Of a DNA stretch of 64,000 nucleotides, positions 2,957 to 31,998 are shown one piece after another. A model generated the notes under the pieces. The model did no database searches. It saw only the letters and a list, made by a program, of their open reading frames with translations, and was not told the origin of the DNA. The first letter of the stretch is position 1, and each line of letters begins with the position of its first letter. The position numbers were made by a program, and so were the translations under genes. Source of the stretch: Rosa chinensis (Eukaryota; Streptophyta; Magnoliopsida; Rosales; Rosaceae). Where the stretch lies: positions 55,774,397 to 55,838,396 of the forward strand of contig NC_037088.1 of assembly GCF_002994745.2 (NCBI RefSeq). Direction: 5' to 3'.

Positions 2957-5900
2957 ATGGAGATGGACTCCCTCCCCAACGGCACCTCCGCCTCCCCGAG
3001 CCCAGGCCCAAGCCCAAGCCCGAGCCCAGCCACCGCACCCCCGCCGTCCTTGAAGCTCGGCCACCTCTCCGACTCCTTGAAGCTCGAGCACCAGTTCCTC
3101 CGAGTCCCCTTCGAGCACTACAAGAAGACGATCCGCGCCAACCACCGCGTCGCCGAGAAGGAGATGTCCGCCGTCATCAACGGCGTCAACGAAGCCGCCG
3201 ACCGCGACGACATGCTCTGCGACGACGCCGTCAGTCACCTCAATTCCCTCGTCTCCAGGCTCCAAGGCCTCAAACGAAAGGTAGGTAAACGAATCACAAT
3301 TCATAGAATTAGAGTGATCTGGAGTATTGAATCGTCGAAATTCGAGCTAATAATTTTGAATGTTTGGCATAACAAGTGGTTGTTCCTAATTGAATTGCGA
3401 AATTGTGATTCGGATTTTGTGTGATGATGGATATAATTGCTTGGTGAAGCTGGAAGAGGGGAGCAAGACTGAGCACTTACAGGCGCAGAGGTGCCGGGCG
3501 AGGCTGGATCATTTAGAATCAGCAGATGTGGAGAATTTGTCAGAATGGAACAATGTGCGCTTGAACCGGATCCTTGTGGACTATATGTTGAGAATGTCTT
3601 ATTATGATACCGCGGTGAAGCTGGCCGAAAGCCAAAATATTCAGGTAGTTTCGCTTTCTGGTCTCGGATTAGCTGGCATTGTATAATATTATGGTTCTTT
3701 ATGCTATGGTCTCGGTCTTGTTCGTTCCGGTATTTGTAACTCATGCCTAGCCTATTAGAAATGAAAAAGAGTAAAATTATAGCTTGGCCAAAAGGTTTTG
3801 TAATTCGCAATAAGTGAAGAAACCAGCATATAGATTGAAACAGGTTGAGTCTCATTCCTGAAGTATAAGAGTTAAAAGAGTGAAGACAAGTAGAAATAAG
3901 TAATGGATAATGGCCTCCAGTTTCTCTCCTTGGAAGACTGCCAGGGTTCATTGGCGTATTTGAATCTCTTTGCTTTTAAGCATAATGCTGATTCTTCTCT
4001 TATTTTGAAACTGCGACATGATTAGTGTTTCTTATGTTCCAGGATCTTGTTGATATCGATGTATTTCAAGAAGCCAGAAAGGTTATTGAAGCTCTCCAGA
4101 ATAAGGAGGTAGGCCCTGCCCTAGCCTGGTGTGCTGAGAATAAGTCAAGGTTAAAGAAATCCAAGGTATGCATTCTCTTTGTCTTCTGTGTACGTTGGTG
4201 GGGAGACCTTGCTATAATTGGGGTGGTTAGATGAGTTTTCTTTGTACAATTATTTGTTGTATTGCTTGTTTCTGAATTACAAAATGAATACTCTCTATAT
4301 AAGCTAATCTGGCTGTTCTTTCGTGGCATCTCTCCTGCTGCTTGGCTTATCTTACATTTGACTTGCTATTATTCTCACAATATGGGGTACATGTTCTAGT
4401 TATGCATATCTCTTGCACGTTTCCTACATAATAGGAGATCAAAGTGAATGGAAAAATGACTTTCATAAATGTTTAATCATTCTTGTCCTATATGGTTGTT
4501 AAAGGTCCACCATAGTGATGGCTCAACTGCTTTCCACAGTATCTTCACCCTACCTGATTTCTGATAATTGCTCGTGAAGTTATATTTGATATGATTGCAT
4601 GTCTAGATTGAGGCTTGCTGGCGCAAAGAAAGTAATGATGTCTTTCCTTTTCGGAGGGGGCAGTGGGTGGTTTACTTCTGCTAGTTAGATTATTGCAATT
4701 TTATATAATTAAGCCAGATGAAGTGGCATATCTATTCTCTTACTCTGTACTTGGACTCCATTTTGTGAGTAGTTGCTTTGAACTGCTTTTATCAAACAAG
4801 ACACATAGGGTTTAGTTACTACTTCGATACTTACCCTAATTTTATTGTGCTAAAATCTGGCTATTTGTCTAATACTGCATCTTTTATTGATGGCAGAGCA
4901 AATTGGAGTTTCAGCTAAGACTTCAAGAGTTTATAGAGTTGGTACGAGCTGAAAATAACTTACGAGCTATCACATATGCCCAGAAATACCTTGCACCATG
5001 GGGTACTACCTATATGAAAGAATTGCAGCGGGTCTTTGTAACAGTAGCTTATAAGAGTACTACCGAATGTGGTACATACAAGGTGATTCTTTTCTCTAGT
5101 TCAGGAAGCTCCTTTTCTTTTTGGATTACTTTGATGCATTTTTCTTCTTCTTTTCTGATATGGTGGAAAGCATTATCAGTTTTTACTAGTCTGGAATTAG
5201 TTGTGTTGCTTTGTTTTATTGGAATGGACTTGCAGATGTAAAGATAAAGATATAACTCGAATGCGAAAGTAGTAAACTAAGTACTTTTGGGACTATGGTC
5301 TCTCTAATCGTTTTAGTCGTTTATCTTCTAAGATATGTGATTGATTTTCTCTTTGGTTGGTTATGCTATCCAGGTTTTATTTGAACCAAAACAATGGGAT
5401 TACCTGGTTGACCAATTCAAACAGGAATTCTGCAAGTTATATGGCATGACACTTGAGCCTCTGCTGAATATTTATCTGCAAGCAGGACTCTCTGCTCTGA
5501 AAACTCCGTATCCATTTACTGATATTTATCTGATTTCTATATTATTGTCCTCATATACATTTAATCAGTGGGATAGAATGCCTGCAGCCCTGCAGGATTA
5601 TCCAATTAGAATGGTGAAACAGCAAATGCATTGGGCGCATTATGTGATTGAAATGGAGAACAATTTTAGGATTACTGACAACAATTTATTGTGGCTGTCA
5701 AGTACATGTATTGAGTTTACTCAATGCATGATGTAAACCGTTTTCATGTCATTATAGTTTTATTTCCCATTAGGGGTTGTAAGTTATAATCCTTACTGTC
5801 ATAAAAGTGGCTTCTTCCTTTGGCTTTTGGTCACTTCTGATTCACCTTTATGCACATGTGGTTATTGCATTAGAGCTGCATCTTGTATCCAGATCTGTTG

Positions 5901-6290
5901 TTTTGCCTTGATTTATTCCAGATATTGTTATGAAGATGATTGCACCAAGGAGGATCCACTGTCACAGGAAGGTTTCCGTAAGCTAGCCCTGCCATTACCT
6001 TATTCTAAGCAGCATCACTCAAAGCTTGTTTGCTACATAACTAAGGAACTGATGGACACGGAAAATCCACCACAAGTTCTGCCAAACGGCCGTGTCTACA
6101 GCACTAAGGTTCCCACATTTGTGCCAGTAATAATTAGATGATTGGTCATTGAGTGTTCGAATCTTAACTTAAGTTTATGTTTGGGCAGGCCCTGGAAGAA
6201 ATGGCCAAGAAGAATGATGGGAAAATTACTTGTCCGAGGACAGGTGAGATCTACAACTACACAGATCTGGTGAAGGCATATATATCATGA
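2957..6290 (+). CDS. MAEA: MAEA-like subunit of the GID/CTLH ubiquitin ligase, seven exons
   Basis: MAEA (Fyv10/Gid9) is one of the RING-type subunits of the GID/CTLH E3 ubiquitin ligase. Exons read by eye: 2957-3280, 3450-3644, 4043-4165, 4897-5082, 5374-5507, 5922-6108, 6189-6290. They join in frame to 416 residues with no stop. Order of domains: a Pro/Ser-rich N-terminus (repeated PSPSP), LisH at about 140-170 (NNVRLNRILVDYMLRMSYYD), CTLH at about 174-247, CRA to about 320, then a degenerate C-terminal RING with CYEDDC and CPRTGEIY. I chose the ATG at 2957 because MEMDSLPNG reads as a natural N-terminus; an in-frame ATG at 2897 would add 20 residues. Intron 6 begins GTTCCC, a weak donor. 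Intron 5 is partly open in frame but is not needed. The last two exons are duplicated at 54821-55184. Confidence 0.93.
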
Positions 6291-6964
6291 GTCTACATAT
6301 TTGTTCAAGTTCTGCTGGCTATGTATCAGCCTGTGCTCTATGTACATAAATCCTTTCTTTTCGATTAAAGTGCCACAAATTCTGGTATAAGAAATTTCCC
6401 TGTGCTGTTATTCTCATGATGCCTCAACTTGGTGTTACTCTTGGGAACTTGAAACATGTATATAAGCAAGTTACTCTTTACAATTTTATCAAGTTACTCT
6501 TTACAATTTTATTTCCAATTAGTTTCATAATTTGTACCAAAATATATTCTACATATATTAAATTTATTTGATAGAACTCCAAGCAGCGTTTCTACTTTCT
6601 ACCAGTAGTCTGGGATCAATCAGTGCAATTACTATGGGGAAAAAAGATTCGAAAATAATCCTATGATTGCATGAACTTTCCCATCTCTCTCTTTTGTAAA
6701 GAGAATCAAAGAAATAAAATATTCAGGAATTGATTGATTCAACAACATTGAGAGGCATCCAACGACGGTACCCGAAAATTATGTAGCAAATTAGGAGCCA
6801 CTTGAAATTTAACATATACAATCATTTGCATGAAACCACCTTCATTCCAGAATTCATGGGCAGCAAGGTGCAAACTTCTTCGTCTTCTTTGTGTTTTCGT
6901 CGAAAGGTGTAAACTCCTTGACTAGATCATTGACTTCGTTGGTGGTTATGAAAACAAATGCTGG
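6291..6964. other. MAEA 3' UTR and intergenic spacer
   Basis: This holds the MAEA 3' untranslated region and AT-rich spacer up to the LINE insertion point. It aligns with 55185-55855 in copy B. No gene is supported. Weak open frames on both strands near 6880-6960 continue into the spacer after the LINE, but I cannot name them. Confidence 0.6.
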
Positions 6965-21716: not shown

Positions 21717-23039
21717 CTAAGACATGTTGGTGATTCGAGCACTACCGTCGATTGTGTTAATGCGGCCCATGGGCTCAATGTTGGCGATCACAAGTGGCGG
21801 TTGACGCACCTTGAACTGCTCAAGCTTGCCGTCACGGTACAAGGTCTCAATGGCTGTTTTGAGGGCGTTACAGCTGTTAGTATTGTGACCGCTGTCTTCG
21901 TGGTATTTGCACCACCTGCCGGTGTTTCTTGGCTTTTCTATTTTTGGGTATTTTCCCGGGGGTGGTGGTGGGATCTGATCCTTGCATTGATTGTATATTT
22001 CTTCATACGAAGCCGTAAGGACTGGAAATACTACATACCGCTGGAAAGACTCCGTATGTTTGTTGCGGTTGTCCCCATGGGATGGGAGGTTTCCCTTGTA
22101 GTGTTGGTCCTTTTGCCGCTTGTTTTGGTACTGACCCTGCTGCCACTCCCTCTTCTTATCAGTTGGCGGTGTGGAGGTTTTATTAGCGGTCCCCTGCTGA
22201 TCGGAGGAGGGTTGTGTCGACTTTGGTGGCGCTGCTGGTGGCGGTGGGGTCTCTCCATATGTGATGAATTCTGCTTGGGCATGAATGACTGCCTCACTCA
22301 TGAGGTGGTCGTATACCGCATTTGGGTGATTGTAGTTAAGGTGATAGAGAAATGGCCCTTTGAGGAGTCCATGCTTAAAAGCCGCCGAAGCCATTGTTTT
22401 ATCAAGATCACGGCACTGAGATGCTGCCGCTCGCCACCTTGTGACGAATGCCTTCAGTGTCTCCTCCGTACCCTGGTTGACGTTGAACATTTGGCTTGTG
22501 TTGTGGTGCCCAGCGGACAGTAGGATGAACCGGGAAAGGAAAGCGTGCGACAATGCTTGGAATGAGTCAATGGACCCCGGCGGGCATTCGAAAAACCAAT
22601 TCATTGCTTCATTGTCCAGCGTTTCGCTGAACAAGTGGCAGAGGGTGGCGTCATCGAATCCCTTGTTGTTGGTGACCTTCTTGAAGGTGTCTATATGGAC
22701 GAAGGGGTCAGTCTTACCGCTGTAATGCGACATTTTTGGAGTCTTCGCATACGCCGGTCTGACGGCCAGCAAAATTGTAGGGTAAATGGTCCTGGTCTGG
22801 ACGCGAAAAGTGGATTTGAAGCTGGTGCTGGGGTGCCTGATTCCATCCGGATTAACCTTTGTTCCAACTGCTGCATCCTTTCCAGTATTTGAGCGGTTGC
22901 ATTGCCGGCAGGGTCTAGCCGGGTACTCCGCTGAACTGATCCTCGCCTGGGAGCGGGTGGGTTTCCCTCTGTTCTCGCCCGAGGTCTCGAGCGGTGGGTG
23001 TGCAGTGATGACTCCGCTTCCTGTTCCAACATTAACTGG
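21717..23039 (-). pseudogene. Tat gag, C-terminal part
   Basis: It contains the Retrotrans_gag core (MSHYSGKTDPFVHIDTFKK, WFFECPPGSIDSFQALSHAF, FVTRWRAAASQCRDLDKTM), a Gln/Lys/Pro-rich linker, and the single zinc knuckle CKYHEDSGHNTNSC typical of Tat gag. The main frame is 22772-21717. The stretch 22773-23039 is in another frame and is cut by the nested element at 23040-23044. Confidence 0.9.
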
Positions 23040-23044
23040 GGTAC

Positions 23045-25028
23045 TGATAGGAGCATTTTAATGTGATATTTTAATAGTTAATTCCTCACATTTTGCTTAG
23101 TTAATTCCTTAACTGAATCGATTTTTAATTCAATTTCTATTTTTAGGTACATTGGAGTAAATGAAGGTGAAATGAGCGTTAGGTCCATAATTACCTGGAA
23201 ATGATGGAGAAAAATGGAAATGTACTAAAAGATCAATTTTACACATATTCCTACTCCGGCTAGGAGAAACCAAGCCAAGCAAAGAAGAAGGAGCGGCCGC
23301 CTGACCAAATGAACTTCAAATGAGCTGAAACCTTCCAGATCCATTCTAGACACCCAAAGGATCATTTCTTATGAAGAGTGCCAGAGAAAAATATGAGTGG
23401 AAGGCCTTCAAACAATCAGCCCAATTTTCTACAGAAGCAAAACCGGAAAACTGGACCTGTAAGAGGTCCAGCAGCATTTCCGGCCCAACCACATGACAAT
23501 AAATTCTGAAATTTTACCACAGTAATCTACACTCATGAAGAAGTCAAAGGCTAAATCTGAGTTCTTAGTGGAGATAAAAATTAAAGGAATAAAGGAAGAG
23601 AAAGTGCTCTCACCTAACAAATCCACTAAGTGTTTAAGTGCTCTCACCTAACAAATCCACTAAGTGTTTAAGTGCTCTCACCTAACAAATCCACCAAGTG
23701 TTTAAGTGCTCTCACCTAACAAATCCACTAAGTGTTTAAGTGCTCAAACCTAACCCATTATGATTTGTTTAAAGGCCAAATAGTGTTGCTTGGAAGCCTA
23801 TAAATAGAGGCAAAAACAAAGACACACAAATTCCTTCATCCATTTCATCTTCTTTGTCTCTCCATTTCCTTTCCATTTTCCTTCTCCATTCTCTAGTTGC
23901 AAAGTTCTGCATTTTCAAGCAAGGAGAGGAAGAAGAAGAAGGAGCCGTGAAGATCATATCCTCCATCATCCACCTTGAAGGCTTGCTTCCAAGATTCAAG
24001 ATCCAACCATCTAGCTCTCCATCTCCATCTCCACTCACGGTGTAATTCGTTCCTTTTCCTTGTAACCTTTTTGGTTTCCTTGTTTGATTTCGTATGAACT
24101 TGTTTCTAGTTAACAATAATGTTTAGGGCAAAGTTTAAGCCCAATTTCTATGTTTAAATAAAGTTTTCGAATTCTATAATTGTGATTCTAAGTCGCTTAT
24201 GTGAGTTTGTTTGATTAAATTTGCTTTACAGAAAACTTTTATATGTTTATCTTATTTGGGTCGACACTTATAGGATTTGCATGTAATTGGTGCTAGGTTT
24301 AAGAACATGAAATCGACTTTTCGTTTTGTGTAACTTGAATCAAAAGTAGTAAAGGTTCTGGACAAGAATCGAATTTAATTGAAGAGGATTGCAATTAGGT
24401 GGACTTTTCCATAACTAAGTTGTACACTTGAGTTGATAGCCTTTCTCTATGTCTAATGCGTTGAACATGTCATGATTGACTAGCTTTCTAGGGCTTGATT
24501 GCATGTTTGATAGGATTAATCTAGGTGCTTTCGCTTAGGTTAATTAGCATTGAAAAGTAAAATATGGGAAATCATTTGCTTTTGAATGTTTCACATGATC
24601 AACTCCTCTCTCATGACTTGGAAGAACAATTATAGGGTTTGAATCGAATTTGATTACATGGAATTGATTTTGATCTTTGTTCCTTGCGTTCCACCCTTGT
24701 ATATATGTTTTTACATTTTCTTTATTTTATTTATCTTAATTTTCAATTCTATAATTCTTAAACCCCCCTCCCTTTTTATTTTGTTACTTGTATATATTTC
24801 TATTCTTTATTTTATTTTTGTAAATAATACTTTATTATTTTAATTCTTTATTTGTTTATACAATTGTATATATTTATATTCTTTATTTTATTTTTGTAAA
24901 TAATACTTTTCTTTATTTGTTTCACAATTACAAGTGTACCCTCAATTCCCGGATAGAACGATCCCTATTTGCTTATACTACTAACGATATTTCAGGGTTA
25001 AATTATGCGCTTGCTAAAAGCGACATCA
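23045..25028 (+). repeat. 5' LTR of the WUS-carrying element
   Basis: 1984 bp, beginning TGATAGGAGC and ending GCGACATCA. It contains a 34-bp tandem repeat and a TATA-like CTATAAATAGAGG at about 23800. Confidence 0.95.
23604..23739 (+). repeat. 34-bp tandem repeat in the LTR, four copies
   Basis: Units start at 23604, 23638, 23672 and 23706 (GTGCTCTCACCTAAC). The matching place in the 3' LTR (30602-30703) has three units, which accounts for most of the length difference between the LTRs. Confidence 0.95.
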
Positions 25029-25853
25029 ATTTTTGGCGCCGTTGCCGGGGATTGAAAAATCACTTGCTAAATTGTATCATTTATTGTATATATATTTGAT
25101 GTATATAAATTGTTTAAAACTTAGTTTAAATATTATTTATATTATTGAACACGAATTTTAATTGTAGGTTGTAAATTGAGAGGAATAGGTGAAGTCTCTT
25201 TTGTTAATATTGGCCTAAACCCCTTATTGGTACCTAGCTCAGGTCCCTTAAGGTTGAGGGCGGCCTTTATTAACACTTGTTGAACTGTCTTCACACTTAT
25301 GAACTTTTTCATCTTAGTAAGTATAGCCTATGTGGAATGGTGTCTAGGAAGGGGACAACGTTCATGACGAGTTTTTGAATCCAGAAGTGCTTGCAAATGG
25401 GCATAAACCACAATGTGGGAGTAGCTCATGCCAAAATGGATTTTTCCTCTCGTGTTCGCCCTCCCCCACCTGGCCATTTCACTAAGGTTGCCCAGACGAT
25501 TTGAAAGGGAGTTTGTGTCTAGGCGACTATACTTGGGCCGCACGTCCACTTGATTTACCGCTTGGAATTTGATTCGATATCAATAATGTTTATAATATAA
25601 GAAATACTTGTGAATACTCTATACGTGTAAATTATTTTGTTGTTTCACACTTTAAACTTGTAAAAATACTTTTCACATTTTTTTTTTTACTCACTTGTGT
25701 ACTTAACTTGTGTCTTATGTACAATATACTTGTTAATTATACTTGTAGTTTGTAATTAATAGTTATACTTGTTTTTATTTTGTATTTCTTTGTTAATTAT
25801 AGTTACTAACTTTATTTAATGTAGGTACTGTCTGGCTGCAAGACGTAAAATAC
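25029..25853 (+). other. PBS and untranslated 5' internal region
   Basis: The primer binding site TGGCGCCGTTGCCGGGGA at 25034-25051 is a form common in plant Ty3/gypsy elements and often assigned to tRNA-Asp. The rest is AT-rich with no coding frame I can support. Confidence 0.85.
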
Positions 25854-26062
25854 AAGCGCTACTTGGGAGGCAACCCAATTCAGAATATAATCAGATTTGC
25901 TTTCTCTTTCCCTATTTCTTTTTATTTTTCATTTTTTCTCTATTGTTTTTATTTTAGGATTTGTTTTCGTAAATGTCTTCTATCTATGCTTACTTATTTC
26001 ATTGCATGCTTTTAATTGATTACATTGAAGATAATGCAATATTTAAGTGTGGGGGAAGAGAT
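25854..26062 (+). repeat. Internal direct repeat module, left copy
   Basis: AAGCGCTACTTGGGAGGCAA, then CAGATTTGCTTTCT, a T-rich stretch, and finally a purine tract AAGTGTGGGGGAAG. The same order occurs at 28066-28288. The pair brackets the WUS gene and the sense ORF. Confidence 0.85.
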
Positions 26063-26125
26063 TTATATTTTTGTCTTTCATTTTGAGTCCAATATATATT
26101 TATATTTGTCTTTTATTTTTGAGTC

Positions 26126-26160
<35 letters not shown>

Positions 26161-26224
26161 TGCATTCATTCAGTCTTATTCAGCTATTTACAAAAAAAAA
26201 AAAAAAAAAAATTTATACACTATA
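26063..26224. other. Spacer with (TA)n and A20, 3' flank of the WUS gene
   Basis: It holds a (TA)n run at about 26130-26156 and A20 at 26191-26210. On the WUS transcript strand the A20 is a T-run, so it is not a poly(A) tail of that gene. Confidence 0.7.
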
Positions 26225-26896
26225 CTAAGCCATGTCTGCATCTCCGTAGGAGTTGAGGCTGAGCTCAAGGGAAATGTGAGAGCCACCGCCATAGCCGCTA
26301 CCTCCCTCGGAAGTAGTCTTCATGTTGCCAAAGATGTCCTCACCATGCATGGGGAATAGTGGAAGGGTTTCAATCTCCTGGTGATATTCTCCTCGTTGTT
26401 CCATGATCGATCCATCAACCCCATAGCCGACACGTGACCCAAAATTTAGATCAATGGATCTGTCAGTACTAGTAGAACCAGTGGAATCAGTGGAACCAAA
26501 GTTCAGATCAATGGACCTACCATCATCAGTAGAACTAGTGGATCCAAAATTGAGATCGAGAGATCCACCAACCCGAACGTTCCGAAATTCCCTCAACTTC
26601 TGCCTCTCACGAGCCTTGAGGTTCTGGAACCAAAAGAAGACGTTCTTGTTCTCGATCTGCCCATACGGTTTCAGATGGAGACAGATCCCTTGAATCTGCT
26701 CTGGAGTTGGGTTCTTAAGCGCCCTGTCGTAGTAAAGCTCCTGGAGGATTCTTAGTTGATCTGGTGTGGGAGTCCACCGGTTATTGGTCGGCCTGATAGG
26801 CGTGTTGGCACTACTCCCGGCTGCTTGGATGCTTCCTCCCTCCTCGGTTGGTTGCTGGGTTTGTAACTCCATTAGTTGCAGAGTTCGTGGTTCCAT
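26225..26896 (-). CDS. WUS: WUSCHEL-type homeobox protein, intronless, captured in an LTR element
   Basis: 223 residues from the first ATG of the frame (26896); the frame is open further upstream but has no other ATG. WOX homeodomain at about 37-102 (NRWTPTPDQLRILQELYYD, NVFFWFQNLKARERQ), WUS box TLPLFPMH at 177-184 and a C-terminal EAR motif LELSL at 210-214. These three together define the WUS clade of transcriptional regulators that maintain shoot stem cells. Residues 112-154 hold three copies of DLNFGS. In the recognition helix the residue after WFQN is Leu (position 93), where WUS has His and most homeodomains have Arg. There are no introns, unlike typical WUS genes, and no stop. A TATA-like box lies 111 bp upstream. 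It is antisense to its host element. Product identity is firm; function here is unknown. Confidence 0.93.
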   Translation of the reverse strand: MEPRTLQLMELQTQQPTEEGGSIQAAGSSANTPIRPTNNRWTPTPDQLRILQELYYDRALKNPTPEQIQGICLHLKPYGQIENKNVFFWFQNLKARERQKLREFRNVRVGGSLDLNFGSTSSTDDGRSIDLNFGSTDSTGSTSTDRSIDLNFGSRVGYGVDGSIMEQRGEYHQEIETLPLFPMHGEDIFGNMKTTSEGGSGYGGGSHISLELSLNSYGDADMA

Positions 26897-27006
26897 GTTG
26901 ATGAAGAAAGGATTGGAGTTTCGAAAGAAAGGTTTAAGGGTTGAGAGAGAAAGGCTGGAACTCGGAAGAATTTTCTTTTGGAGTGAACAGTCGCTCAGAA
27001 TGCACC

Positions 27007-27014
27007 TACTTATA
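27007..27014 (-). promoter_or_regulatory. TATA-like box of the captured WUS gene
   Basis: On the minus strand this reads TATAAGTA within CTATAAGTAGG, 111 bp before the ATG at 26896. A transcription start about 30 bp downstream would leave a leader of about 80 bp. The LTRs do not supply this promoter. Confidence 0.6.
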
Positions 27015-27114
27015 GAACGAGTGAGCAGATCTCCACCGTTGGATGGACGATCTCTGAGATTAAATCTACGCGTTGGATTAAAGTCACCCGCAAACACGGA
27101 AAAGCTGTTGGCGC

Positions 27115-27316
27115 GTGGAAGACACGTGGGGGAACCAAATGAATCACGAGGAGCTGTGATAGACAAGCTACAGCAGAAAGCAGGTTTAATTGCCGTGAAT
27201 CAAGGAAAAGGAAGGACGCGTGGGGAATCAAACGAATCTCGAGGAGCCGTGACAGACAAGCTATAGCCGAAAGCATGCCATAAATCCAGGTAAAGAAAGG
27301 AATATTTACACGTGGG
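27115..27316 (-). repeat. Tandem repeat of about 94 bp with G-box motifs upstream of WUS
   Basis: Two diverged units (from about 27119 and 27212) share CGAGGAGC, GACAAGCTA and GAAAGCA. A partial third unit follows at about 27301. CACGTG occurs at 27123-27128 and 27309-27314, and the second unit has ACGCGTGG in the same place. This is candidate upstream regulatory DNA of the captured gene. Confidence 0.75.
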
Positions 27317-27496
27317 GGAGTTTCTTGGGCCGTGAACTATCATAACTCTTCTCCTTCCCGGAGAAGCTTTGTTAAAACCGTGTGCCTGTTGAGATTTCTA
27401 CCCTATTTGTGCTTTACATATACATCCTTTTTTGTCTCCTCCAGATTTTACTAAGGTTTGTCTAAGCGTGCAGTTTCAAATTCCTTCTACTTCCTC
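27317..27496 (+). other. Leader of the sense ORF
   Basis: A pyrimidine-rich stretch ending TCTCCTCCAG (to about 27445) looks like a 3' splice site shortly before the ATG at 27497. The donor would lie upstream, but I cannot place it. Confidence 0.4.
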
Positions 27497-28027
27497 ATGG
27501 CTCGAACCAGGGTTACCCCTCGTAGGGGCGTCAATCAACGCCGTGTTCTCTCTTTGGAAGAAGAAGGTCGTCAAGCGGCCACTAGAGCTGGGCTTACTCG
27601 TCCATGGGACCATCGTCCTATCCGTGAGCGTACCCACAGTCCCCCTCCTCTGCCTCGTCGCTCTCCCAGACTGCATCCCGGAGAGTCTTCTTCCTCACCA
27701 GCTGCTCGTGCTCCTCGGCCTATGGCCACCCTGGAAAGCTTGTTGGATTCGATTGATGATTTGCGTTCCTCTCTCCGCGATGGTATTATGGTGACAGATT
27801 GGAGAGTCAATTGCATGATCGATTACATCTCTGAGATGAACTGCTCTTTGATCACCTATCACACTGCAATAAACAAGCTTGCTCAGGAAGTCAATAACTT
27901 GCAGAGTTATCCTCCTGGGTTTCCTCGCAAGAACGCTACTGCATCACAACATGAGGACCCGCCTCCGAAGGCTGAAACCAGCAAGAGGGCTGCCACTCGC
28001 CCGCATACCGCTCCTCCAAAGGAGTAA
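27497..28027 (+). CDS. Sense ORF of unknown function in the WUS-carrying element
   Basis: 176 residues from the ATG of MARTRVTPRRGV; a start 13 codons upstream is possible. The N-terminal third is very basic and Arg/Pro-rich (RSPRLHPGESSSS), the middle (from about residue 77) is predicted by eye to be helical (MATLESLLDSIDDLRSSL, YISEMNCSLITYHTAINKLA), and the tail is Pro/Lys-rich. I do not recognise it: there is no zinc knuckle, protease or RT motif. It sits where gag would be in an autonomous element, just downstream of a possible splice acceptor and just before the right internal repeat module. It could be a degenerate gag relic or an element-specific protein that binds nucleic acid through its basic end. 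It is uninterrupted in a young element. Confidence 0.6.
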   Translation: MARTRVTPRRGVNQRRVLSLEEEGRQAATRAGLTRPWDHRPIRERTHSPPPLPRRSPRLHPGESSSSPAARAPRPMATLESLLDSIDDLRSSLRDGIMVTDWRVNCMIDYISEMNCSLITYHTAINKLAQEVNNLQSYPPGFPRKNATASQHEDPPPKAETSKRAATRPHTAPPKE

Positions 28028-28065
28028 ATGGAGGTACAAGTCTAGGCTGAAAGACTTTAAACATT

Positions 28066-28288
28066 AAGCGCTGCATGGGAGGCAACCCATTTCAACCGTA
28101 TCTGTGGAGGAGCCATCAAACGCAGATTTGCTTTCTTGAACTCTTCCTTCTATTTTATTTTCATGAATTTTAAGTTGTTTTAGGTTTCGTTGTGTTAACT
28201 TTCTCTTCTATGCTTGATTTATGCTTTGCATGCTTTATATTTGTTATACATTGAGGACAATGCATGAATTAAGTATGGGGGACGGATT
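28066..28288 (+). repeat. Internal direct repeat module, right copy
   Basis: AAGCGCTGCATGGGAGGCAA, then CGCAGATTTGCTTTCT, a T-rich stretch, GAGGACAATGCATGAATTAA and a purine tract AAGTATGGGGGACGG. It pairs with 25854-26062. The purine end resembles the true PPT at 30008-30025. Confidence 0.85.
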
Positions 28289-30007
28289 ATTGCTTTATTG
28301 TGTTTTTAGTAGTTAGTAAAAAAAAAAAAAATGTTTATAACAAAAGAAAATGTTGTGATACACTAAGGTATATTGGATTAAACATAGTCTTGAAAAAGGG
28401 TAGCTGTTTCAGTCCCATTGCACATCGAGACTCTCTGTTCCCGTACCTAAGTGTTGAAATTAAATTAAATTGTAAAAAAAAAAAAAATGTTGGTTTTAGA
28501 GTGTTTTTGTGTGTTTGAGTCTTAGGATGCTCCTAACGTCTAGGATGAACATGTCTCCGAATTCATGGCTGAAGGTTTTCACAATCAAAATAGGACTTAA
28601 TTGAATTCTGTGGTTAATCGACATTGTGATGCTTGTATGATGATTTGAGATAGGATTGTAACTTGGTTCATTAAGCATGCTAGGATTAAGTCTGATTCAT
28701 TTGACCCAAGTGAGCTGTTGAGCTAAAATACTTTCTTTTTGAGTGCTTATTGATAATTTCAGAATTTCATGGCTGTATTTGCAAAACCTCACCTTTCTTT
28801 GAAAATCCAATGATCATGTGCCATTGATTTTAATGGACTAGAGAGTACTAGAACTCGGCTGTTGTGACTGTCAAAACTTGTATGCCATAATATGCACTGA
28901 TCCTGGATAGGATAGAAGGCATTAGGGTAACCACCAAAGCCAAACAAGCATGTGTCCCCAATTGTGCCCGTCGTGGGACTCCTTAGAATGAACCCCTTTG
29001 AGCCTACGTTGAAAACCTTTGTTTCATCACCCTCACTACCCTACCATGAGCTTAGTACAGGATATTTCTACCCTTGTCTTAAGGACTTAGTAGAGCATGA
29101 CATAGTATGTAGGGGTGACGATGAAAGACAAGTGTGGGGTGGGAAAAATCCAAGAAAAAAAAAAAAATTTTGCCTTGAAAAAAAAAAAAAAAAAAAAAAG
29201 AAGAAAGAAAACCGGCAAAAGAGAAGAAAAATTGAAAAGAAAACTCTTGGGAAAATGTTGAAGTGTGGTTTTGGACTTGCAAATTTGTAGAAGGCTCAAA
29301 GTTGAAAATTATGTCTTTGTCCATTCCCATGTTGGTTAGAGTGAAGGTTTGGCCCAAACCAATGATATTTGGTCTACAAAAATGATGACATAAGGTGGTC
29401 CTTATATGCTCTGCTAGGTCCTTAGGATTTTTTTTTGTATCCTTAATCTTCATTTCGAAAACCCTAGCTTAGCCCCATTACAACCTGTTTTAAGTGCTGA
29501 CTTGATCCTTGAGATGGGCAGTCTTTGGTTAGTGGAGTCAGTTACGCAGTCGAGCTTATGGTAGGTCCATTTGTGCACTTAGTCATTTCATGAGGTCTTT
29601 AAAAATTCTTCACAAAATGTGTTTATTGATGAAATATGCAAGCGGTTTGTTGCCTTACAATTTGTTCTCTTGCATATACTTGAGTGTGAAGCTTTTAAGC
29701 ATAGCCATTTATGAGAGAAAAATCGAGAGTATGCCCTGTGAGTTTGGATTGGACTTGTTCGAAACATGCTATCATTCACTGTATAACTTAAGTTCTCTAT
29801 ATCTTGCTTAGTCATATGAATGTCACAGGTTTATTAACCATGGAATTATCTTTGTGATTTTGATTAAGTGTTTAACGTGAAAGCCATGAGTTTGGAGTCT
29901 CTGAGACAACAGTTAGGAGCAATAGAATCATTTACTTGCTTTTTGTCAAGTCTTTGTTCTGTTTTGGATTTTTTTTTTTGTTTTGTTTTGCTAAGGGACT
30001 AGCAAAA
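28289..30007 (+). other. Untranslated 3' internal region of the WUS-carrying element
   Basis: AT-rich with several A-runs (for example 29155-29167 and 29178-29199). Open frames here are low-complexity and not convincing. The true PPT (AAGCTAAGTGTGGGGGAATT) closes it at 30008-30025. Confidence 0.7.
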
Positions 30008-30025
30008 GCTAAGTGTGGGGGAATT

Positions 30026-31993
30026 TGATAGGAGCATTTTAATGTGATATTTTAATAGTTAATTCCTCACATTTTGCTTAGTTAATTCCTTAACTGAATC
30101 GATTTTTAATTCAATTTCTATTTTTAGGTACATTGGAGTAAATGAAGGTGAAATGAGCGTTAAGTCCATAATTACCTGGAAATGATGGAGAAAAATGGAA
30201 ATGTACTAAAAGATCAATTTTACACATATTCCTACTCCGGCTAGGAGAAACCAAGCCAAGCAAAGAAGAAGGAGCGGCCGCCTGACCAAATGAACTTCAA
30301 ATGAGCTGAAACCTTCCAGATCCATTCTAGACACCCAAAGGATCATTTCTTATGAAGAGTGCCAGAGAAAAATATGAGTGGAAGGCCTTCAAACAATCAG
30401 CCCAATTTTCTACAGAAGCAAAACCGGAAAACTGGACCTGTAAGAGGTCCAGCAGCATTTCCGGCCCAACCACATGGCAATAAATTCTGAAATTTTACCA
30501 CAGTAATCTACACTCATGGTGGATAATTTCATATGAAGAAGTCAAAGGCTAAATCTGAGTTCTTAGTGGAGATAAAAATTAAAGGAATAAAGGAAGAGAA
30601 AGTGCTCTCACCTAACAAATCCACTAAGTGTTTAAGTGCTCTCACCTAACAAATCCACCAAGTGTTTAAGTGCTCTCACCTAACAAATCCACTAAGTGTT
30701 TAAGTGCTCAAACCTAACCCATTATGATTTGTTTAAAGGCCAAATAGTGTTGCTTGGAAGCCTATAAATAGAGGCAAAAACAAAGACACACAAATTCCTT
30801 CATCCATTTCATCTTCTTTGTCTCTCCATTTCCTTTCCATTTTCCTTCTCCATTCTCTAGTTGCAAAGTTCTGCATTTTCAAGCAAGGAGAGGAAGAAGA
30901 AGAAGGAGCCGTGAAGATCATATCCTCCATCATCCACCTTGAAGGCTTGCTTCCAAGATTCAAGATCCAACCATCTAGCTCTCCATCTCCATCTCCACTC
31001 ACGGTGTAATTCGTTCCTTTTCCTTGTAACCTTTTTGGTTTCCTTGTTTGATTTCGTATGAACTTGTTTCTAGTTAACAATAATGTTTAGGGCAAAGTTT
31101 AAGCCCAATTTCTATGTTTAAATAAAGTTTTCGAATTCTATAATTGTGATTCTAAGTCGCTTATGTGAGTTTGTTTGATTAAATTTGCTTTACAGAAAAC
31201 TTTTATATGTTTATCTTATTTGGGTCGACACTTATAGGATTTGCATGTAATTGGTGCTAGGTTTAAGAACATGAAATCGACTTTTCGTTTTGTGTAACTT
31301 GAATCAAAAGTAGTAAAGGTTCTGGACAAGAATCGAATTTAATTGAAGAGGATTGCAATTAGGTGGACTTTTCCATAACTAAGTTGTACACTTGAGTTGA
31401 TAGCCTTTCTCTATGTCTAATGCGTTGAACATGTCATGATTGACTAGCTTTCTAGGGCTTGATTGCATGTTTGATAGGATTAATCTAGGTGCTTTCGCTT
31501 AGGTTAATTAGCATTGAAAAGTAAAATATGGGAAATCATTTGCTTTTGAATGTTTCACATGATCAACTCCTCTCTCATGACTTGGAAGAACAATTATAGG
31601 GTTTGAATCGAATTTGATTACATGGAATTGATTTTGATCTTTGTTCCTTGCGTTCCACCCTTGTATATATGTTTTTACATTTTCTTTATTTTATTTATCT
31701 TAATTTTCAATTCTATAATTCTTAAACCCCCCCTCCCTTTTTATTTTGTTACTTGTATATATTTCTATTCTTTATTTTATTTTTGTAAATAATACTTTAT
31801 TATTTTAATTCTTTATTTGTTTATACAATTGTATATATTTATATTCTTTATTTTATTTTTGTAAATAATACTTTTCTTTATTTGTTTCACAATTACAAGT
31901 GTACCCTCAATCCCCGGATAGAACGATCCCTATTTGCTTATACTACTAACGATATTTCAGGGTTAAATTATGCGCTTGCTAAAAGCGACATCA
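30026..31993 (+). repeat. 3' LTR of the WUS-carrying element
   Basis: 1968 bp, nearly identical to 23045-25028. Relative to the 5' LTR it has three rather than four 34-bp units and an extra GTGGATAATTTCATAT-type insertion near 30520. Confidence 0.95.
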
Positions 31994-31998
31994 GGTAC

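Follow-up and report, generated by a model that had tools for sequence, protein, structure and literature searches.

Can a plant retrotransposon carry a developmental regulator of its host as working cargo, and if so, where did the gene come from and why has it been kept? The question is raised by a long terminal repeat (LTR) retrotransposon at positions 23045-31993 of a 64,000-nucleotide stretch of the China rose, Rosa chinensis (assembly GCF_002994745.2, contig NC_037088.1, 55,774,397 to 55,838,396 of the forward strand; hereafter the window), which contains, antisense to itself, an open gene of the WUSCHEL (WUS) clade. An earlier note, made from the letters of this stretch, had proposed a recently mobile element with an intact WUS gene. 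We find that the element is a non-autonomous LTR retrotransposon and a member of a young, high-copy family with WUS as its antisense cargo. Taken as a whole, we hold it to be very probable that such elements copy an intronless WUS gene along with themselves, that they likely draw reverse transcriptase from related elements, and that the gene probably persists by virtue of a predicted DNA-binding product that benefits the element.

A retrotransposon family that moves with a WUS gene

The window element has the hallmarks of an LTR retrotransposon: two LTRs, both with termini TGAT...ATCA, a target-site duplication (TSD), a primer-binding site (PBS) and a polypurine tract (PPT), as the earlier note had described (Table 1). 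Its LTRs differ by 3 substitutions over 1950 aligned bases, the number that had been estimated by eye, and by three indels of 17, 34 and 1 bases that the estimate had missed. Besides the WUS frame, the longest open reading frame (ORF) of the internal region has 189 aa; the element therefore has no gag-pol, as proposed, and lacks the reverse transcriptase, RNase H and integrase that define an autonomous Ty3 element. When the flanks are joined in silico, at least 402 codons run free of stops over the junction, which is what a clean insertion into another element's coding region would give; judged by its position, the minus-strand frame so restored is that of the retrotransposon gag ORF (21717-22772) immediately to the left.

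The carried gene belongs to the WUS clade of WOX proteins. Its frame matches the Pfam Homeodomain family at 3.5e-10, its product matches the solved WUSCHEL homeodomain at 2e-23, and the predicted fold of the protein resembles the WUS-DNA complexes 6ryd and 6ryl (TM to target 0.91-0.95). Among at least 120 protein matches, the first 28 are R. chinensis entries with the exception of P0010, a short contig. Together with the tree described below, the homeodomain and fold matches uphold the earlier reading of a WUS-clade gene, and the uninterrupted 223 codons, the WUS-box and an EAR-like motif are present as noted. The WUS-box residues T177, L178, L180, P182 and H184 and the EAR-like SLELSL are invariant in 22 of 22 aligned proteins, and homeodomain, WUS-box and EAR-like motif are retained in every aligned lineage; in the window-type lineage the histidine that follows WFQN in WFQNHKARER is replaced by leucine.

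Mobility was assessed in a family set of 21, consisting of the window element and 20 copies read out of 39 chosen, which came from a DNA search with a probe from 26000-27500 (51 matches, with the best 40 of 1436 candidates scored). WUS lies antisense at the identical internal position in all 21. Its frame is uninterrupted in 19 (in L017 and L028 from a later ATG), and premature stops occur in L013 and L026. Both ends were set by script in 13 of the 21 copies, to which the TSD and LTR-divergence figures refer. Perfect 5-bp TSDs flank 11 of these 13, no two alike (GGTAC, CCTGT, GTTCT, CCATG, GCCAA, CTTGT, CTTGC, GTAAG, TAATG, ATCAT and TACAC), and in L022 four of five bases match. The test set beforehand, several copies with the same WUS and different TSDs, thus came out positive. 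LTR divergence, as Kimura two-parameter (K2P) distance, is 0 to 0.0122 in 12 of the 13, all save L010, or 0 to 0.47 million years at a substitution rate of 1.3e-8, in line with the very recent mobility that had been proposed; in L023 and L025 one LTR is strongly shortened. WUS is thus a fixed component of this young, multicopy family and moves with the element. Its passive late insertion into a single copy is ruled out by the multiple copies, the fixed antisense position and the differing TSDs.

Some copies point to exchange between elements. L010 lacks a TSD, and its two LTRs are strongly diverged from each other (K2P 0.33), yet its internal region is 95% like that of the window element, and it is therefore likely a product of inter-element recombination. 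Between copies, the LTRs have a median identity of 0.79 (12 copies) against 0.96 for the internal regions, which suggests that LTRs have been exchanged through recombination.

Two scans of the genome with protein queries (P0028 and the window protein) extended the count. They gave 165 and 156 matches, with the best 150 of 678 and of 713 candidates scored, respectively; after exclusion of partial matches (15 and 6 rows), 135 and 144 near-full-length rows remained, with no overlap. There are hence at least 279 distinct near-full-length WUS loci, 177 of them on C2; the matched stretch is free of stops in 256 and contains one in 23; the figure counts WUS loci, with flanking sequence read for the fetched loci alone. 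The outcome that would have confined WUS to the window copy is excluded by these loci and the 21 copies. As an independent check, a 5'-internal probe free of WUS gave 40 matches including the window, and for 23 of them the scans list a WUS gene where one was expected (confirmed by reading for one, L042). Four of the other 17 were read: L041 and L043 carry WUS, and L044 and L045 are taken up below. The family has thus likely copied WUS to hundreds of new sites in the China rose genome. Inverted pairs of WUS copies about 1.6 kb apart occur at C4:25343014-25345905 and C1:6840583-6843610 and are possible hairpin or small-RNA sources.

The gene has a candidate promoter of its own. TATAA stands upstream of the WUS ATG in 21 of 21 copies, 118-122 bp off in 19 and 142 and 171 bp off in L017 and L028, the two with a later ATG. 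At least one G-box, CACGTG, lies within 520 bp of the ATG in 20 of the 21 (none in L022), and the 12 LTRs scanned contain none. A second, sense frame, ORF2, is likewise found across the family: every one of the 21 copies has a match to it, which is split in L010 and contains one stop in L016. ORF2 has no Pfam family and five database relatives, which are Rosa entries or short contigs. The earlier note had thus correctly listed the LTRs and the WUS gene, and had missed the TATA-like box, the family-wide ORF2 and the multicopy state of WUS.

Table 1. Features of the window element and its cargo, in window coordinates
Feature	Position	Strand	Remark
TSD GGTAC, left copy	23040..23044	.	
5' LTR	23045..25028	+	1984 bp; 34-bp tandem repeats near 23600-23750
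PBS-like TGGCGCCGTTGCCGGGGA	25034..25051	+	which we take to be complementary to tRNA-Asp
Internal 68% repeat, copy 1	25818..26056	+	with GGGAGGCAACCCA and AAGTGTGGGGGA
WUS-clade gene	26225..26896	-	223 codons, uninterrupted, intronless, antisense to the element
EAR-like SLELSL	26255..26272	-	residues 209-214
WUS-box TLPLFPMH	26345..26368	-	residues 177-184
Homeodomain	26585..26785	-	residues 38-104
TATA-like box CTATAAGTAG	27006..27015	-	about 118 bp before the WUS ATG
G-box CACGTG	27123..27128	.	upstream of WUS
Second G-box CACGTG	27309..27314	.	upstream of WUS
ORF2	27497..28027	+	176 aa, sense; found across the family; no Pfam family
Internal 68% repeat, copy 2	28027..28282	+	
PPT AAGTGTGGGGGA	30011..30022	+	adjoins the 3' LTR
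3' LTR	30026..31993	+	1968 bp
TSD GGTAC, right copy	31994..31998	.	

The two internal 68% direct repeats, marked by GGGAGGCAACCCA and the purine-tract-like AAGTGTGGGGGA, bracket the segment with WUS and ORF2, and L045 is missing most of that segment.

Origin of the carried gene

The native rose WUS gene (L029, C2:11.71 Mb) has 3 exons and encodes 299 aa. Two older copies, L030 and L031, match its exons joined, with the introns gone (89-98%), and in both the match stops at native base 3773; in the window copy it stops at base 3771. Past this point L030 and L031 have a foreign tail in common, closed by a stop codon and then TATAGTG. In the window copy the foreign tail is shorter but includes the same TTAGTATAGTG, and L033 retains 39 bp of tail. 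On the other side of the gene, an upstream stretch with the TATA box is common to the window copy and L031 (77% over 79 bp) and absent from the native locus. The native gene (L029, reverse strand, about 1900-2255) has an upstream insertion of about 340 bp flanked by ACCTCTCTGTCAACTT, and the L031 retrocopy is without it.

In the tree, one clade (support 97/94) unites 17 extra WUS proteins, of which 5 come from loci read in this work and 12 are database entries (3 from R. rugosa) whose genomic surroundings were unseen. Native rose WUS is next to this clade (91/80), and Argentina and Fragaria lie outside. The protein sequences thus place the carried WUS proteins in one clade beside native rose WUS, and the comparison with the native locus that had been suggested yields both intronless older copies and an adjoining clade. 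Because the older copies are intronless, L030 and L031 end at a common base and the proteins form one clade, a single capture of a spliced WUS transcript is most likely; we infer that it postdates the divergence from strawberry and predates that of R. chinensis from R. rugosa. Capture at the DNA level with introns is ruled out for L030, L031 and L032, which match native exons without introns. Simple template switching between packaged mRNAs would not be expected to yield the antisense orientation.

These observations also bear on whether the copies could be ordinary duplicates of WUS, whole-genome, segmental or tandem, near which retrotransposons later inserted. Duan et al. 2024 (PMC11405225) suggested whole-genome duplication for the rose WOX genes; the same text reports no collinear genes and calls for more evidence. 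In our copies WUS occupies one fixed place between LTRs with TSDs, and the older ones have lost their introns. Ordinary duplication is therefore hardly credible, and whole-genome duplication in particular is ruled out as the source by the missing collinearity, the fixed place between LTRs with TSDs and the intron loss.

Under the capture that we favour, a spliced WUS mRNA would have entered a Ty3-type element a single time, within the rose lineage. It would have acquired foreign sequence on both sides, an upstream stretch that includes a TATA box and a tail at the C-terminal end, and would have passed between related LTR families and been amplified.

Related elements with pol or gag pieces

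Elements related to the window copy retain parts of the missing machinery. L035 has RT_RNaseH (PF17917), RVT_3 (PF13456) and Integrase_H2C2 pieces on one strand and, downstream on the opposite strand, an uninterrupted WUS frame of 249 aa; seen from its internal domains, without mapped LTRs, its strand and order fit an antisense ORF downstream of pol. Its two RNase H-type domains, a hallmark of Tat, suggest a candidate Tat/Retand assignment; TRP28 (PF04195), a Retand hallmark, was found in none of four other antisense ORFs (one in L031, two in L032, one in L035). In L030, WUS lies antisense to gag and protease pieces. WUS thus appears both in Ty3-type elements with pol and in non-autonomous ones, and reverse transcriptase for the window-type copies would likely come from such relatives. 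A longer kin of the window element, L034 (91% over 3.1 kb), has a 422-aa sense ORF (5507-6775, minus strand) with a zinc-knuckle match below threshold and named relatives in Rosa only, which is perhaps a gag remnant.

Selection on the carried gene and competing explanations

If the protein serves the element, its sequence should be constrained. We compared native WUS with nine copies from several lineages, a diverged set whose pairs share history and are not independent tests. The ratio dN/dS (omega), corrected for the mutation spectrum, is 0.35-0.73 and so below 1 for every one of the 45 pairs, including the 9 with native WUS. As controls, 6 pairs were read in wrong frames; the 12 values obtained span 0.71-2.05, with 11 at or above 0.90. 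In an alignment of 25501-29100 across 20 copies (L009 dropped), diversity is lowest in WUS at 0.014, against 0.038 in ORF2 and 0.038 and 0.087 in two non-coding stretches. On these comparisons the carried WUS protein is likely under purifying selection, with the gene kept working. In the mechanism that we favour, a putative WUS protein would be expressed from an antisense promoter of its own and serve the element as an accessory regulator in those meristem cells from which the germ line arises.

Several observations weigh against this account. Within the young burst, omega by NG86 is 0.34, a value that we replaced with a spectrum-corrected one because NG86 ignores mutation bias; the corrected WUS omega is 0.61 (interval 0.40-1.05), ORF2 behaves alike (0.63, 0.40-1.06), and five wrong-frame controls span 0.74-1.80, so neutrality within the burst is not excluded. 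The dN/dS comparison between copies that had been suggested thus speaks for constraint among diverged pairs and leaves the burst compatible with 1. Uniformity close to that of WUS is also seen in the non-coding stretch 25501-25650 (diversity 0.019). L044 is without WUS at the expected place, and L045 keeps only the WUS 3' tail, by which it is a deletion product rather than an ancestral WUS-less state. The WUS-box/EAR end of the window copy (26244-26406) is 93% like L030 as against 77% at the homeodomain end, a mosaic history that indicates recombination and complicates selection tests. No autonomous element with window-type LTRs was found, the LTRs of L030 and L035 being unmapped. Scores of WUS-type sites in 12 LTRs show no excess for 7 of 8 motifs, the exception being TTAATTAA (7 against 2.5 expected; 2 of 100 shuffles). 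Finally, 359 of 364 rose-only WOX genes were nearly unexpressed during rooting and five exceeded 10 counts, in rooting stages rather than meristems (Duan et al. 2024, PMC11405225).

Two lines of evidence were set aside. LTR sites of WUS type as a self-activation device, with an excess for TTAATTAA alone among the 8 motifs, are not taken as support, and short 'ena' contigs among the protein matches, which could equally be transcripts or draft-genome pieces, are not counted as expression evidence.

The burst interval that includes 1, the copies without WUS and the near silence of the rose-only genes would all suit a gene caught by accident, whose frames are open only through the youth of the copies and whose copies the plant silences. 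Such a history does not account for frames that are open, and omega that is below 1, in lineages separated by NG86 dS of about 0.2-0.9, for the motifs retained in all aligned lineages, or for WUS being the least diverse part of the aligned stretch, and we consider it somewhat unlikely.

The effect of the cargo could instead lie in RNA. The sense transcript of the element is antisense to WUS, and double-stranded or small RNAs, rather than a protein, might silence elements and perhaps native WUS in trans. The opposed strands fit this, as do the two inverted copy pairs and the native-WUS 21-mers present in the copies (73 of 880 in the 21 young copies, 362 of 880 in L030); constraint at the protein level is not predicted by it, and we judge it unlikely. 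We retain the carried protein as the probable reason for which the gene is kept.

Comparison with rose WOX genes and known elements

Duan et al. 2024 (PMC11405225) counted 381 RcWOX genes, 364 of them in rose-only clades, along with 170 WOX genes in R. multiflora and 105 in R. rugosa. The element-borne proteins fit the motifs printed for clades IV and V, and chromosome 2 is richest in clades I-V, as in the WUS loci counted here; that study treats these clades as ordinary genes, and the string 'transpos' is absent from its main text. On the basis of printed motifs and chromosome bias, not of the gene list, the element family probably accounts for most of the 364 rose-only genes. The family gives a mechanism for an unexplained, genus-wide WOX expansion in roses, makes hundreds of annotated rose transcription factors likely transposon cargo, and places a large dose of WUS-like sequence in an ornamental species in which meristem and flower traits are targets of breeding.

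The earlier note knew of no described element of this kind. A 2023 meeting report (Naito, PMC10714607) already describes a burst that left many WOX copies in Vigna marina and V. riukiuensis (more than 1000 in the latter), most of them flanked by identical LTRs and with TSDs. We found no report of a WUS-carrying element in Rosa in the literature, judged mostly by titles and abstract openings. The rose family shares with the Vigna elements the many LTR-flanked copies with TSDs after a burst; the latter are from a legume, and the meeting report does not state their orientation, WOX type, splicing or element lineage. The carried genes of rose fall with rose WUS, which makes independent captures in rose and Vigna most likely, as judged from the published description of the Vigna elements. 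WOX capture by LTR elements is thus known in outline from Vigna, and rose is likely a second, separate case. Together they suggest convergence on one stem-cell gene family, which would be hard to explain if the cargo were neutral. Plant LTR retrotransposons may at least twice, in Rosa and in Vigna, have seized the shoot stem-cell regulator itself and kept it as an accessory gene, with which the element would act in, or enlarge, the cells that found the germ line, a plant counterpart of retroviruses with growth-control genes; we advance this as a tentative and rather unlikely idea.

Other elements that copy host sequence, as in rose, include maize Bs1 and tomato Rider/SUN (PMC13317346). Transduced ORFs of the Bs1/Rider type are described in one or few copies (PMC7264820), whereas the rose family carries a whole regulator at hundreds of loci and in several lineages. 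Orchid Ty3/Gypsy elements with a 2-ODD (m6A demethylase) ORF come close in that a captured host-type domain has been kept through subfamily divergence (PMC9289625); their cargo is an RNA demethylase, while that of rose is a developmental transcription factor. In arrangement, close parallels are the antisense additional ORFs (aORFs) between pol and the 3' LTR, such as Grande gene23, RIRE2 and Retand TRP28, where an antisense ORF is likewise kept family-wide (PMC7264820, PMC11963269). An upstream promoter of its own is reported for gene23 and DNA binding is predicted for TRP28 (PMC7264820, PMC11963269), and for most aORFs origin and function are stated as unknown (PMC7264820). By comparison with the aORFs described in these two papers, that of rose has a known origin, WUS, and a homeodomain as its domain. 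With a known ancestor, fold and biochemistry, it makes the role of such ORFs directly testable, and the rose element looks like a rare antisense extra ORF of known origin.

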